From the NCBI RefSeq assembly GCF_031458235.1, contig NZ_JAVDYB010000001.1:124001-188000 (forward strand): a stretch of DNA of 64,000 nucleotides. Direction: 5' to 3'. Below, in pieces: positions 22,977-42,979 of the stretch. Origin of the DNA: Catenuloplanes atrovinosus. GTDB taxonomy: Bacteria; Actinomycetota; Actinomycetes; Mycobacteriales; Micromonosporaceae. A program made the position numbers and the translations under genes. The notes under the pieces are model-generated. The model saw only the letters and a program-made list of their open reading frames with translations, was not told the DNA's origin and did no database searches. Every line of letters begins with the position of its first letter. The stretch's first letter is position 1.

Positions 22977-23168
22977 AAGGAGTACGCGGCATCCGGTGTG
23001 CCCTTCTTCCTCCGGGTCGATTTCCGCAACAGGGTTCCGGCGATGACGCTGCTGGAACTCGTCGACGGCGAGTACCAGCCGCTCGTCCCGGCCGCGGCCG
23101 GGACGAGGTTCGTGATGAGGGAGCCGTTCGGGTTCGAGGTGGATCCCGCGGAGCTGCTGGACGAGTGA
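22977..23168 (+). pseudogene. Uma2-family (DUF820) endonuclease remnant, C-terminal end only
   Basis: An open frame without a proper start reads KEYAASGVPFFLRVDF, then TLLELVDGEYQPL, then [14 protein letters not shown] and a stop. This is the recognisable C-terminal third of Uma2/DUF820 PD-(D/E)XK proteins. Upstream the frame is interrupted by TGA at 22911, and no DNA in other frames restores the catalytic part. The fragment is 50 bp upstream of dxr. Uma2 genes are abundant and often decayed in Micromonosporaceae. Confidence 0.75.
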
Positions 23169-23217
23169 GCGGCGGGCGCTCGGTGGGGCGTTGGGGAACG
23201 TGGGGAAGAATGGGGGC

Positions 23218-24456
23218 GTGAGTTCGCCTCGGCATATCGTTCTGCTCGGTTCGACCGGGTCCATCGGCACGCAGGCCATCGACATCGTGGTACGGAATCC
23301 GGAACGGTTCCGGGTGGTGGCGATCGGCGCGGGCGGGGGCAACGTGGAGTTGCTGGCCCGTCAGGCGCTGGAGCTGGGCGTCGAGGTGGTCGGTGTGGCG
23401 AAGGCCACGGCCGCGCAGGATCTGACGCTCGCCTTCTACGCGGAGGCCTCCCGGCGCGGCTGGACCAGCGGTGAGTTCCGCATCCCGAAGATTCTGGCCG
23501 GGCCGGACGCGATGGCCGAGCTGGCCGCGCTCCCGTGCGACATCGTGCTCAACGGCGTGGTCGGCTCGCTTGGCCTGGCGCCCACGCTGGCCGCGCTCAA
23601 GCACGGCCGCACGCTCGCCCTGGCGAACAAGGAGTCGCTGGTCGCGGGCGGTTCGCTGGTCCGCGCCGCGATCCAGCGCCCGGACCAGATCGTGGCCGTC
23701 GACTCCGAGCACTCGGCGCTGGCCCAGTGCCTGCGCGGCGGAACCGCGGACGAGGTGCACAAGCTGATCCTGACCGCGAGCGGCGGCCCGTTCCGCGGGC
23801 GCGAGCGCGACGAGCTGGCCGAGGTCACGCCCGCGCAGGCGCTCGCGCACCCGACCTGGGACATGGGGCCGGTCATCACGATGAACTCGGCCACACTCGT
23901 GAACAAGGGGCTCGAGGTGATCGAGGCCCACGAGCTGTACGGCATCCCGTACGACCGGATCGAGGTCGTCGTCCACCCGCAGTCGATGATCCACTCGATG
24001 GTCGAGTTCGTGGACGGCTCCACGCTCACCCAGGCCAGCCCGCCGGACATGCGGCTGCCGATCGCGCTGGCGCTGGGCTGGCCGGAGCGGGTGCCGGGCG
24101 CGGCCCGGCCGGTCGACTGGAGCACCGCGAGCGCCTGGACGTTCGAGCCGCTGGACGAGGTGGCCTTCCCGGCGGTGGAGCTGGCCAAGCGGGCCGGCCG
24201 CGAGGGCCGGTGCCGCCCGGCGATCTACAACGCGGCGAACGAGGAGTGCGTGGCCGCGTTCGCCCGTGGCGACCTTCCGTTCCTCGGCATCGTGGACACC
24301 GTGCGGGACGTCCTCGCGGAGGCGCCCGATTTCGGCGAACCGGGTACCGTCGACGACGTGCTTTCCGCTGAGGCCTGGGCGCGTACGCGAAGCCGAGAGA
24401 TCATTACGACGTTGAGCGCCGGGAGCCCGGCGACCCGTACCGGGGGAGCTGCATGA
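23218..24456 (+). CDS. dxr: 1-deoxy-D-xylulose 5-phosphate reductoisomerase
   Basis: Second enzyme of the MEP isoprenoid pathway (DXP to MEP, NADPH- and metal-dependent). It has 412 residues. The NADPH-binding [14 protein letters not shown] is at residues 11-24; [19 protein letters not shown] (metal ligands), [31 protein letters not shown] and [12 protein letters not shown] follow in order. GTG at 23218 was chosen because [16 protein letters not shown] is the family N-terminus. The stop overlaps the rseP start by ATGA. With ispG nearby it confirms MEP isoprenoid synthesis. Confidence 0.97.
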
Positions 24457-25718
24457 GCTGGATGTTCTGGGTCGGCGTGCTGGTCTTCGCGATCGGCTTG
24501 ATCATCTCCTTGGCGCTGCACGAGGCCGGGCACATGTGGTCCGCGCAGGCCTTCAAGATGAAGGTCACCCGTTTCTTCATCGGCTTCGGCCCGACGCTGT
24601 TCTCGTTCCGCCGCGGCGAGATCGAGTACGGCGTGAAGGCGATCCCGGCCGGTGCGTTCGTGAAGATCGTCGGCATGGTGCCGCAGGACGACGACGTGGC
24701 GCCGGAGGACGAGCCGCGCGCGATGTGGCGGCAGGCGCTGTGGAAGCGGACGATCGTGATGGGCGCCGGTTCCGCGATGCACTTCGCGCTCGGCACGGTG
24801 CTGCTCTGGGGCACGTTCGCGTTCATCCCGTTCAGCGACCCGGCCCGGGCCGACGAGGTCCGGCCCGAGGTGGCCGCCGTCACCCAGTGCACCACGCCGA
24901 AGCTGGAGGTCCGGGACGGCCGGCAGGTGCTCTGCGACCCGGCGACCGGCACGCCCAGCGCGGCGAAGCAGGCCGGTCTCCAGCCCGGCGACGTGATCAC
25001 CGCGGTGAACGGCACGCCGGTGACCGGCTGGGGCCAGATGAGCGAGCTGATCCGGGCGGCCGGCGGCAGGTCGACCACGCTCGCGTTCGAGCGCGGCGGC
25101 GTCGCGCAGACCGCCACCGTGACCATCCCGCTGGCCGAGCGGGTGAAGCAGGACTCGGACGTGCGGACCGTCGAGGACATCACGCCGGACGACATCGAGA
25201 CGGTCGGCGTGCTCGGCATCAGCCCGGTGATCCCGAAGACGGTGGCCGGACCGGCCGCCGCGTTCGGGCTGACCTACCACGGCGTGATCGACATGGTGGT
25301 GAACACGTTCGAGTCGCTGAGGCGCATCCCGGAGAAGATCCCGCTGCTCTGGGCCGCGATCGTCGGCGAGGAGCGCGACCCGGAGACGCCGATCAGCGTG
25401 CTCGGCGCCACCCGGCTCGGTGGCGAACTGGTCGAGCGCCAGGAGTACGCGGTCGCGCTGCGGCTGCTGGTGGTGCTCAACTTCTTCATCGGCATCTTCA
25501 ACCTGCTGCCGCTGCTCCCGCTGGACGGCGGTCACATCGCGATCGCCTGGTTCGAGCGCATCCGGTCGTGGATCTACGCGCGTCTCGGCCGGCCCGACCC
25601 GGGCCGGGTGGACTACTTCAAGCTGATGCCGTTGACGTACGTGGTCATTCTCATCTTCGGTGCGTTCACGCTGCTCACGCTGACCGCCGATATCGTCAAC
25701 CCGATCACTCTTAACTGA
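24453..25718 (+). CDS. rseP: Site-2 intramembrane metalloprotease (RseP/Rip1 type)
   Basis: An M50 zinc protease that cleaves anti-sigma factors and other membrane proteins inside the bilayer. It has 421 residues. The HExxH motif is in the first membrane helix ([13 protein letters not shown]). A single PDZ domain (about 165-230: [20 protein letters not shown]) follows. The third zinc ligand is in [13 protein letters not shown] last hydrophobic segment closes the protein. The gene is translationally coupled to dxr and 16 bp from ispG; this trio is conserved in actinobacteria (Rip1 in mycobacteria). Confidence 0.94.
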
Positions 25719-25734
25719 GTCAGAAGGACAGCCT

Positions 25735-26913
25735 GTGACCGCCATCAACCTCGGAATGCCCGCGGTTCCCCCGCCGCCGCTCGCCCCCCGGCGTGCCAGC
25801 CGGCAGATCATGGTCGGCTCGGTCGCGGTCGGCGGTGGCGCTCCGGTGAGCGTCCAGTCGATGACCACCACGCTGACCGCCGACGTCAACTCCACGCTGC
25901 AGCAGATCGCGGAGCTCACCGCGGCCGGCTGCCAGATCGTCCGCGTCGCCGTCCCGTCCCAGGACGACGTGCTGGCGCTGCCCGCGATCGCCAAGAAGTC
26001 CCAGCTCCCGGTGATCGCCGACATCCACTTCCAGCCGAAGTACGTGTTCGCCGCGATCGACGCCGGCTGCGCCGCGGTCCGGGTCAACCCGGGCAACATC
26101 CGCCAGTTCGACGACAAGGTCAAGGAGATCGCGAAGGCCGCGTCCGACGCCAAGGTCCCGATCCGGATCGGCGTGAACGCGGGCTCGCTGGACAAGCGCC
26201 TGCTGGAGAAGCACGGCAAGGCGACCGCGGAGGCGCTGGTCGAGTCCGCGCTCTGGGAGTGCTCGCTGTTCGAGGAGCACGGCTTCCGGGACATCAAGAT
26301 CTCGGTCAAGCACAACGACCCGGTGGTGATGATCCGGGCGTACCGGCAGCTCGCCGAGCAGTGCGACTACCCGCTGCACCTGGGCGTCACCGAGGCCGGC
26401 CCCGCGTTCCAGGGCACGATCAAGTCGGCGGTCGCGTTCGGCGCGCTGCTGGCCGAGGGCATCGGCGACACGATCCGCGTCTCGCTCTCCGCGCCGCCGG
26501 TCGAGGAGATCAAGGTCGGCAACCAGATCCTGGAGTCGCTGGGCCTGCGCGAGCGCGGCCTGGAAATCGTCTCCTGCCCGTCCTGCGGCCGCGCGCAGGT
26601 CGACGTCTACACGCTGGCCGAGCAGGTCACGGCCGCGCTCGACGGCTTCCCCGCGCCGCTGCGCGTCGCCGTCATGGGCTGCGTGGTGAACGGTCCCGGC
26701 GAGGCCCGCGAGGCCGACCTGGGCGTCGCGTCCGGCAACGGCAAGGGTCAGATCTTCGTCAAGGGCCAGGTCATCAAGACCGTGCCGGAGTCGCAGATCG
26801 TCGAGACGCTGGTCGAGGAGGCGCTGCGCCTCGCCGACGAGATGGGCACGGAGCTCCCGGAGGAACTCCGCGACCTGCTGCCCGCCACGAAGCCGATCGT
26901 GACGGTCCACTAG
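25735..26913 (+). CDS. ispG: 4-hydroxy-3-methylbut-2-en-1-yl diphosphate synthase (IspG/GcpE)
   Basis: The [4Fe-4S] enzyme of the MEP pathway that makes HMBPP from MEcPP. It has 392 residues: an N-terminal TIM barrel ([63 protein letters not shown]) and a C-terminal cluster domain with the Cys pair in [14 protein letters not shown], a third Cys in [17 protein letters not shown] and the ligand Glu that follows. Start GTG at 25735. A perfect terminator lies just downstream. Confidence 0.97.
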
Positions 26914-41008: not shown

Positions 41009-41113
41009 GGCTCCGATCGGCGGACCGGAGCGGAGCGCCAGCGGAGTCGGAGGGTAGCCGGAGGTTTGCCCGCGGGAGCATGCGGGCCGGACCGGGCTGG
41101 GAGCGGGAATATC
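41009..41113. repeat. About 105-bp dispersed repeat, copy 1
   Basis: Shares blocks GGAGCGGAGCGCCAGCGGAG, GGTTTGCCCGCGGGAGCATG and AGCGGGAATA with 59,520-59,624 in the same order. The 3' half is then amplified in the adjacent block (41071-41381). Confidence 0.8.
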
Positions 41114-41381
41114 GGGGTCCGGGGTCGTTCCCGGGGTCGGCACAGTGCCTGCGGGAGCGTGCGGGCTGGTCCGGGCTGGGAGCGGGAATATCGGGGTCCG
41201 GGTCGTCCCCGGAGTCGGCACAGTGCCTGCGTGAGCATGCGGGCCGGACCGGGCTGGGAGCGGGAATGCCGGGGTTCGGGGTCGGCACAGTGCCCGCGGG
41301 AGCGTGCGGGCTGGTCCGGGCTGGGAGCGGGAATATCGGGGTCCGGGGTCGTCCCCGGAGTCGGCACAGTGCCCGCGGGAG
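41071..41381. repeat. About 78-bp tandem units carrying a stem-loop, four to five copies
   Basis: Units begin at GGGAGC near 41074, 41153, 41231, 41298 and 41377 (spacings 79, 78, 67, 79). Each contains CCCGCGGGAGCATGCGGG or its G variant, in which GCCCGC and GCGGGC can pair around GGGAGCAT, then CGGGCTGGGAGCGGGAAT. The last unit is cut after CCCGCGGGAG by the IS110 element. Confidence 0.88.
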
Positions 41382-41391
41382 TTGCTCTGTG

Positions 41392-42627
41392 TCAACGTCT
41401 CTGGTCGAGTATGAGTTGGAGTTGGCCGTGTTTGTCCTGTTCGTAGGGGGTGTTCGTGGTCCAGCATTTCCAGATCACTGTCAGCCAGGCGCGGGCGAGG
41501 ATCCGGACGGCGTGCTGGTGTGTGTGGCCGCGTTCGCGGGCGCGGTGGTAGAGGTTCGCCGCCCATGGGTTGGCGTGGCGGCTATCGGCGGCGAAGTCGC
41601 AGACCGCGTCACGAAGGTGTTTGTCCGCGCTCCAGCGGAACGTGACCACCTTCGATCGGCCGGACTGGCGGGTCGAGGGAGCGGCGCCGGCCAGGCAGGC
41701 CATCGCGTTCGGGGTGGGGAACCGGCCGCGGGCGTCACCGATCTCGGCCAGAAGCCGGGCCGCGCGGATCGTGCCGGCTTTCGGCAGGCCGGCGAAGATC
41801 GGCGCGTCGGGGTGGGCGTCGAATGCCTCACCGATCTGCGTGCTGAGGGCTTTGATCTGCGCGACGAGGCTCTGCAGGATCGCCACGAGCGCGACGGTGA
41901 TCCCTGCCAGCCCGGCCCCGGCCGGGCCCTGCGGCCCGCGGGGCGCGGACCGGATCCGCGCCAGCAACACCGCCGCTGACGTCCGCCCGGAATACCGCTG
42001 CCGGGCCAGCCACCGGGCCAGCCGGGCCTCGGTCAACCGGTCCAGGGCGTCCTGGCTGGTGAACACGGCCAGGAACGCCAGACTGATCGGCGAGTCCAGG
42101 TCCGCGAACAACCCGACCGTCCCGGGCATGGCGGTGTCCAGATGCGCCCGTAGCTGGTTCGCCGCCGCGACCCTATGCCCGATCACGTCCTTACGCGCCC
42201 TCGACAACCGCCGCAACACCACCGTGTCATCCCGATCGGTGCACAGGGGCGTGAGCCGAGCCCGGTCCGTGCGCACCACATCGGCCAGCACGAACGCATC
42301 GAACCGGTCATCCTTGTTCCCCGCCGACCCATACCGGCCCCGCAACGCCTTCACCTGCCCCGGAGCAATCACGAACACCGGAAGACCCGCATCGAGCAGC
42401 GCATCGACGACCGGCCCGTCACCCCGCTCGATCCCGACCGCGTCCACCTCATGCCGGTCCAGCACCCCGACCATCCGGGCCAGCCCCGCCGCCTTGTGCG
42501 TCACCGTGACCCGCTCCACCACCCGCCCGGCCTCGTCGACCACACACACCACATGATCATCTTTCGCCCAGTCGACTCCCGCCCACCGCACTCGACCCGA
42601 CACCACCGTCTTTGCCACACTCACCAC
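41392..42627 (-). CDS. IS110-family transposase (DEDD recombinase)
   Basis: A 411-residue bridge-RNA-guided recombinase of the IS110 type. The N-terminal RuvC-like DEDD domain (about 1-160) has GVDWAKDDH, VGIERGDG, and GNKDDRFDAFVLADVVRTD, giving the four acidic residues. A helical middle region follows. The C-terminal Transposase_20 domain has FAGLPKAGTIRAARLLAEIG and AGAAPSTRQSGRSK, which includes the likely serine nucleophile. The gene is intact, so the element may be active. Start GTG at 42627; a second GTG follows at the next codon. Confidence 0.93.
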   Translation of the reverse strand: MVSVAKTVVSGRVRWAGVDWAKDDHVVCVVDEAGRVVERVTVTHKAAGLARMVGVLDRHEVDAVGIERGDGPVVDALLDAGLPVFVIAPGQVKALRGRYGSAGNKDDRFDAFVLADVVRTDRARLTPLCTDRDDTVVLRRLSRARKDVIGHRVAAANQLRAHLDTAMPGTVGLFADLDSPISLAFLAVFTSQDALDRLTEARLARWLARQRYSGRTSAAVLLARIRSAPRGPQGPAGAGLAGITVALVAILQSLVAQIKALSTQIGEAFDAHPDAPIFAGLPKAGTIRAARLLAEIGDARGRFPTPNAMACLAGAAPSTRQSGRSKVVTFRWSADKHLRDAVCDFAADSRHANPWAANLYHRARERGHTHQHAVRILARAWLTVIWKCWTTNTPYEQDKHGQLQLILDQRR

Positions 42628-42883
42628 AGGATTCCTCGCTGTTGCAGCAGCAGGGGAAACACCAGGCGGCTCCCGGGGACCACCACCACCGAAAGCTCAT
42701 TGACCGGCACTCGACAAGGTGCATAGCTCTGTCGTCGGTCAAGGTGGCACCCCGGGCGCCCGTCAGGCCTCGCAGAACTCCCGCAGGACCTCAAAAATCT
42801 CGCAAGCAGAGGCAATGACCCAACGAACACCCGGTGCTACCCGACCCATACAGACCCGGGCACCACCCATGTTGACCAATGAG
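42628..42883 (-). ncRNA. Candidate bridge RNA region of the IS110 element
   Basis: Non-coding DNA upstream of the transposase, read on the minus strand. It contains ACAGAGC (42732 to 42726), identical to the element's far end (41390 to 41384), and CAATGAG (42702 to 42696), complementary to the element's near end CTCATTG (42883 to 42877). These are placed as left and right donor guides would be. It also contains GCGGGAG (42784 to 42778), complementary to the target half CTCCCGC that now flanks the transposase end. The order, target loop first and donor loop second, matches the known IS110 arrangement. RNA boundaries are not determined. Confidence 0.6.
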
Positions 42884-42922
42884 CATGCGGGCCGCACCCC
42901 GCTGGGCGCGGGAAGATCATGG
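42881..42922. repeat. Right half of the repeat unit split by IS110
   Basis: GAGCATGCGGGCCGCACC, CGCTGGG and GCGGGAAGATC follow the element and align with the 78-bp unit, with a few mismatches. Confidence 0.75.
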
Positions 42923-42979
42923 GCTTGATTGTGGGAAACGGGGTTTCGGCTGGCCGGCGTCATTACGATCGGTGACGTT

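Follow-up and report, generated by a model that had tools for sequence, protein, structure and literature searches.

An IS110-group insertion sequence of Catenuloplanes atrovinosus and its predicted bridge RNA directed at a dispersed stem-loop repeat

We describe an insertion sequence of Catenuloplanes atrovinosus, belonging to the IS110 group of the IS110 family, whose left end very probably encodes a bridge RNA with target-binding and donor-binding loops that guides insertion into a dispersed stem-loop repeat. The mechanism appears to be that of IS621: the recombinase would excise the element as a circle, the bridge RNA would pair both with the circle junction and with the loop of the repeat CCCGCATG-CT-CCCGCGGGC, and the top strands would be cut and exchanged at the CT core with the help of handshake bases. 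Pairing and exchange at the CT core would thus cause the element to land at one position and in one orientation in the repeat. A sequence-only reading of this DNA is right in substance, and the mechanism has been described before for related elements. New here is a distantly related IS110 element in a second species, which occupies another sub-site of the same repeat in five of five cases and has matching guides.

The element and its insertion sites

The window, i.e. the whole stretch of 64,000 nucleotides that was analysed (C1:124001-188000), lies in a single-contig 8.9-Mb genome. The features of the element and of its target are as follows.

41382..42883, minus strand: IS110-group insertion sequence of 1,502 bp, one CT core included (five 100% identical copies)
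41392..42627, minus strand: IS110 recombinase, 411 aa, with DEDD RuvC-like domain and Transposase_20 (Pfam, NCBIfam)
42628-42883, minus strand: non-coding left end, 256 bp (ORF positions)
42882..42883, minus strand: CT core at the left-end junction, reading AG on the forward strand (junctions of all copies)
41380..41381, minus strand: CT core at the right-end junction, reading AG on the forward strand (junctions of all copies)
41390..41395, minus strand: TTGACA, possible -35 box of a circle-junction promoter (conserved at the right end)
41067..41381, minus strand: target repeats in tandem, as four register copies with spacing 79, 78 and 67 (window sequence)
42884..42930, minus strand: remaining half of the interrupted repeat, on the GCCCGCATG side (junction; far limit set by eye)

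The recombinase matches PF01548 (E 1.1e-33), PF02371 (E 4.7e-16) and the NCBIfam model NF033542 (170.5 bits, cut-off 140). The only solved relative found was the IS621 recombinase (chain 8wt6_A), with a whole-sequence E of 1.2e-7 and no single stretch passing alone. In the alignment of the two proteins, GVDWA, ER and NKDDRFDA of the query face GIDTA, EA and NKTDTVDA, and QSGRS faces ESGSS; these stretches presumably hold the DEDD and serine residues. Residues D102 and S241 are named in a section of PMC11208158.

The right end is short, the transposase ORF stopping 10 bp before the boundary. Membership of the IS1111 group, with the RNA in a long right end, is not supported: the RNA model described below matches in the left end and the right end measures about 10 bp. 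TTGACA is present at the right end of 60 of 62 elements, query included; a complete circle-junction promoter was not apparent, TANNNT occurring 14-20 bases from TTGACA in only 5 of the 62.

Re-reading of the sequence bore out the coordinates first given for the element, its AG/CT core and the 256-bp non-coding region. The accompanying claim that the ends can be placed exactly holds for the coordinates, but not for base-level fixing from the window copy alone, which is ambiguous because of a 3-base microhomology (CTC) at the junction. In one relative (L066) the left end and the right flank have just CT in common. The CT core is found at both junctions without any other target duplication in 5/5 copies, and four uninterrupted orthologues contain one CT.

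The five full-length copies, 100% identical over 1,502 bp, were found in the source genome among the best 40 of 388 candidates, which were scored; three further matches were short (43.7 bits). As the sequence-only reading had anticipated for further copies, all five found lie at CCCGCATG-CT-CCCGC with different flanks: the insertion site is CCCGCATG-CT-CCCGCGGGC inside one dispersed stem-loop repeat, the left flank ending in CCCGCATG and the right flank starting with CTCCCGCGGGCAC (5/5), and the flanks outside the repeat differ between copies (5/5).

The exact 20-mer GCCCGCATGCTCCCGCGGGC occurs 61 times in the source genome and 30, 69, 50 and 52 times in four other Catenuloplanes species; the reversed pattern has no occurrence in any of these five genomes. 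As single-stranded DNA, GCCCGCATGCTCCCGCGGGC forms a hairpin whose stem has 6 bp and whose loop contains the CT core (8/200 shuffles fold as well). Its first G is present at two of the five insertion sites, and the other three would form a 5-bp stem. An alignment of 16 of 30 repeat loci (A2) separates a conserved left part (consensus TTCCCGCTTCCGGCGTGGTCGCGGCCCGCATGCTCCCGCGGGC) from variable right parts. In the same alignment (16 of loci L009-L037) the left part is constant over about 45 bp, and several right-hand modules can be discerned, sometimes in tandem. The window copy lies at one end of a tandem array, its insertion having broken the next repeat unit. One array unit, which is empty, agrees exactly with the target 15-mer (41072-41086); the others (41151-41165, 41229-41243 and 41296-41310) have one mismatch each.

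The flanks of two copies (L004 and L002) were followed into four species, giving eight loci. At four of the eight orthologous loci examined the repeat is uninterrupted, with one CT and without the element, an empty site of the kind that the sequence-only reading had proposed to look for in a related strain: for L004 in G002 and G003 (none at that place in G001 and G004), and for L002 in G001 and G003 (none at that place in G002 and G004). Three of these four empty repeats deviate from CCGCATG immediately left of the core.

The predicted bridge RNA and its guides

The candidate RNA and its guides were placed as follows.

42673..42827, minus strand: candidate bridge RNA body with target-binding and donor-binding loops (held-out covariance model R1, consensus fold)
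42801..42809, minus strand: left target guide CUGCUUGCG, re-registered (column homology with relatives)
42778..42784, minus strand: right target guide GCGGGAG (7/7 with CTCCCGC)
42776..42777, minus strand: target-loop handshake bases UU (can pair with AA, the last two donor-left bases)
42726..42732, minus strand: left donor guide ACAGAGC, UAU next (equals the right end of the element)
42696..42702, minus strand: right donor guide CAAUGAG (7/7 with the left end of the element, CTCATTG)
42694..42695, minus strand: donor-loop handshake bases CU (C opposite target -1 G, paired; U opposite -2 T, unpaired)

A 5' stem-loop of the bridge RNA would sit at coordinates higher than 42827.

The relatives derive from 80 fetched loci (L039-L118; 47-71% protein identity). 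Exclusion by hand of L084, L089 and L117, which are without upstream sequence, left 77, of which 70 have the left-end pattern CTCAYTGST; the seven without it were removed, and 70 relatives plus the query were kept. Alignment A1 comprises 57 of the 70, three (L058, L097 and L114) having been dropped as oddly aligned and ten as identical or shorter than 140 bases. Model R1, built from these 57 relatives with the query left out, detects the RNA at 42673-42827 on the minus strand with 86 bits (E 7.4e-13), the runner-up in the window reaching 18 bits; the covariance-model check proposed by the sequence-only reading was thus positive. Rfam, at gathering scores, gave no match in the window. In five Catenuloplanes genomes, with the best 150 of approximately 23,000-26,000 candidates per genome scored, the model matches the five source-genome copies as well as a single place in G002 and another in G004. 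Every one of these matches adjoins a transposase gene, i.e. no orphan bridge RNA without a transposase was seen among those candidates.

In the alignment of the relatives, a long stem of paired bases, in which one A is bulged, is followed by a loop made up of a small hairpin between two guide stretches, and then by a second module of this kind. RNAalifold, run on the 57 relatives without the query, gave 32 pairs with both target guides in unpaired columns; for 21 of these pairs at least one sequence has both sides changed and pairing kept. The idea that the guides lie in loops is therefore borne out by the consensus of 57 relatives, as regards the target guides, but not by the query's own minimum-energy fold, in which the left and right target guides pair with each other and which is only modestly more stable than its shuffles (z -1.70, 9/200 shuffles as good; whole left end z -2.43, 4/200). 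A fold of this sort is among the outcomes that the sequence-only reading had named as refuting. The guides of relative L050 are also partly paired with each other in its fold, so loop closure in single-sequence prediction says little in this family. We consider that the consensus fold and the covariation outweigh the query's own minimum-energy fold.

The three words ACAGAGC (42732-42726), CAATGAG (42702-42696) and GCGGGAG (42784-42778) were all located on the minus strand where they had been claimed. Among 20,000 dinucleotide shuffles of the 256 bp, 783 contain GCGGGAG, 148 ACAGAGC and 192 CAATGAG; at least two words occur in 17, and all three in order in none.

The left target guide required correction. 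GCTTGCG (42807 to 42801), as proposed from the window, is two bases out of register with the structural alignment of the relatives, which gives 42809-42801. In that register CTGCTTGCG faces CCGCATGCT with 7/9 pairs, one of them a wobble; A(-3) and the core T are mismatched. When the guide may be placed freely, 17,163 of 20,000 shuffled segments are equally good, so that the left guide does not exceed chance if the query sequence is taken by itself. According to a passage by Durrant and colleagues (PMC11208160), most natural cases have zero to two mismatches, and the two of the query fall within this range. The alternative, that GCUUGCG (42807-42801) is the real left target guide and pairs GCCCGCA via three wobbles, would allow all 7/7 positions to pair in the window copy, wobbles counted. 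It would leave TG between the paired target and the core, whereas the guide of the relatives runs into the core, its last two bases being CT in 59 of 71 rows (the query is not among these). In addition, column alignment places CUGCUUGCG there, and across the five copies the first base of GCUUGCG faces G, G, A, A and T, thus being unpaired in one of them. Taken together, this makes the GCUUGCG register unlikely.

Guides and targets among the relatives

Pairing was scored for 65 distinct left ends, query included, 58 with the right flank and 62 with the left flank. Core columns were left out of the guide statistics, and the ends of the relatives were set by conserved end motifs, chosen after inspection of those motifs. 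Own targets were compared with reassigned ones in 20,000 shuffles, a procedure that ignores the kinship of the elements.

The right target guide forms 282 pairs with the right flank, as against a shuffled mean of 201.0 (282 reached in 0/20,000). In 51 of the 58 elements, the query among them, all 7/7 positions are paired if wobbles are counted; 17 distinct right targets are represented. For the left target guide the figures are 254 pairs against a shuffled mean of 211.3 (0/20,000), the guide being poor in many single elements, with at least three mismatches in 37 of 62. In ten rows (L090, L091, L094, L095, L098-L101, L106 and L107) it is seemingly shifted, so that it pairs with the left target and not with the core, its last two bases being other than CT.

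In the target loop, handshake base 1 is complementary to the last donor base in 57 of 58 elements (0/20,000 shuffles) and base 2 pairs in 36 of 58 (9/20,000). Base 1 switches together with the donor, being U-A in 44 rows and A-T in 17, with one A-C mismatch. The donor-loop handshake exhibits little covariation at base 1 (233/20,000) and none at base 2 (6,946/20,000). When distinct guide-target pairs of the relatives only are considered, the shuffles reach the observed pairing in 0/20,000 cases for the right guide, 0/20,000 for the left guide and 100/20,000 for the target-loop handshake. The covariation of the target-loop handshake agrees with that reported for IS621 relatives in a part of PMC11208158.

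These data bear on the possibility that the recombinase protein alone recognizes the repeat, by its sequence or as a hairpin, and that the guide-like words of the left end are relics or due to chance. The target 20-mer does fold as a single-stranded DNA hairpin, the left guide of the query is weak, and a passage of PMC1525189 describes REP targeting in five IS families, the transposase itself appearing responsible in the case of IS1397 and ISKpn1. We nevertheless regard protein-only targeting as very improbable, taking into account that guides and flanks change together across the 17 distinct right targets, that the guides of another IS110, whose protein is 33% identical, address a different sub-site, and that the three donor and target words in order were found in 0/20,000 shuffles. 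Still less credible is the spread of the five copies by inter-repeat recombination or by duplication of repeat-bearing segments, rather than by site-specific insertion: the repeat is abundant and the copies are identical, but the flanks outside the repeat differ in 5/5 cases and the repeat is intact, with a single CT, at the four orthologous loci. The view that the element is programmed for the stem-loop repeat family is supported by the five copies at the target, the RNA model and the empty sites.

A shared repeat and comparison with known systems

Among 27 PF01548 matches in the genus, the surroundings of 23 were examined, four in G004 being left out. Eleven of the 23 IS110 elements lie inside the repeat, i.e. 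five copies of the window element, five of a second lineage (L155-L159, in G003) and one further element (L164, by eye). For the other 12 no repeat was seen at the ends (three-motif scan with up to two mismatches, or inspection of the flanks).

The second lineage has a 428-aa open frame, whose product is 33% identical to the query protein over 396 residues. All five copies sit in the right part of the repeat, at CCTCC-CT-GCACG; their ends were set by comparing the copies, so that GCACG could be target or element. In the left end, CGTGCAG pairs 7/7 with CTGCACG in 5/5 copies, CCATTAG pairs 7/7 with the lineage's own left end, and this left end also holds GGGGTGTC, identical to its own right end plus the core C. 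GTTCCTCCC pairs with the left target up to the core C at 9/9 positions, with one wobble, in four of the five copies and at 6/9 in L156; the base following GTTCCTCCC, G, is unpaired against the core T. As handshake bases the lineage has AU, facing donor TG, and GG, facing target CC. In G003 the string CCTCCCTGCACG is present 32 times in uninterrupted form. The sub-site string GGCGCTCCTCCCTGC occurs 59, 64, 92, 82 and 75 times in the five genomes, with no reversed occurrence.

On balance, we favour the view that bridge-RNA addresses for distinct sub-sites within the Catenuloplanes repeat were acquired independently by distantly related IS110 lineages of the genus, which would make the repeat an RNA-addressed landing pad. 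In support of this, two lineages in two species each have 5/5 insertions in the repeat and matching guides. A third lineage at the repeat (L164, in a third species) is a single-copy lead.

This third IS110 (L164:1000-2450, in G002; 369-aa open frame) lies, by eye, inside another right-hand variant of the repeat, and its left end holds TCCGCTGGC, which is present also at its left flank. Another IS110 group with the ends GGGGTGTCCCTATGG ... GATCAAAAAGGTAACGG occurs in two species (L145 and L149 in G000; L146, L150 and L153 in G004); it has no repeat motif at its ends, one end of L149 lying about 40 bp from a repeat copy.

An origin or mobilization of the repeat by a RAYT was considered and rejected, since Y1_Tnp (RAYT) genes were found in 0/5 Catenuloplanes genomes at E <= 0.001, in a search whose control was positive in 5 of 14 known genomes.

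For Catenuloplanes together with insertion sequence, no paper was found in the open-licence literature. The elements described here provide a compact natural record of bridge-RNA reprogramming, in which guides and sites change together among 65 distinct left ends, the target-loop handshake base included. Two recombinases using different sub-sites of one repeat offer a setting in which to ask how new guides originate and what makes dispersed stem-loops preferred. The results also point to an actinobacterial REP-like repeat in five genomes in which no Y1_Tnp (RAYT) gene was found. What they add is a set of natural covariation and a landing site that lineages share; established knowledge is not overturned.

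The features of IS621 (Escherichia coli) used for comparison are those given in parts of PMC11208160 and PMC11208158. Like IS621, the query has a DEDD recombinase with Transposase_20, a long left end, a predicted two-loop RNA and a CT core, and, as far as those parts describe IS621, the same guide order (LTG-RTG-LDG-RDG), handshake bases and a target in a REP-type repeat. Unlike IS621, its recombinase is distant (whole-sequence E 1.2e-7) and its target repeat is a different one, with Y1_Tnp (RAYT) not found in the five genomes searched. The right target guide has 7 bases, whereas that of IS621 has 4, extendable to 7, in the account of PMC11208160; at the end of the left target guide, the position reading the core T is G in the query and U in IS621. 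By eye, the query has a 6-bp subterminal inverted repeat (GTCAAC/GTTGAC, 42871-42876 and 41391-41396), as against 7-17 bp in the IS1111 group and, in a section of PMC11208160, 2-3 bp in the IS110 group.

Insertion into host REPs is known for other members of the IS110 family, with 7/7, 7/7, 6/6 and 4/4 copies in REPs for ISPpu9, ISPpu10, ISPa11 and ISRm19, respectively, in the relevant part of PMC1525189. Similarly, every query copy counted sits in one host repeat family, the hosts of the former being Pseudomonas and Sinorhizobium and that of the query Catenuloplanes. ISPa11 is treated in a passage of PMC11187229 as IS1111-type, with the RNA downstream of the gene, whereas that of the query is upstream. 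Since ISPpu9 and ISPpu10 share the REPs of one Pseudomonas putida host, as the same part of PMC1525189 has it, the use of one repeat family by two Catenuloplanes lineages is an instance of a known pattern. With its actinobacterial relatives (L039-L118) the query shares the CTCAYTGST left end, the right-end TTGACA and the RNA fold (57 aligned); unlike the query, these mostly hit other targets with matching guides, the right target CTCCCGC recurring only in L042 and L111 among those scored.
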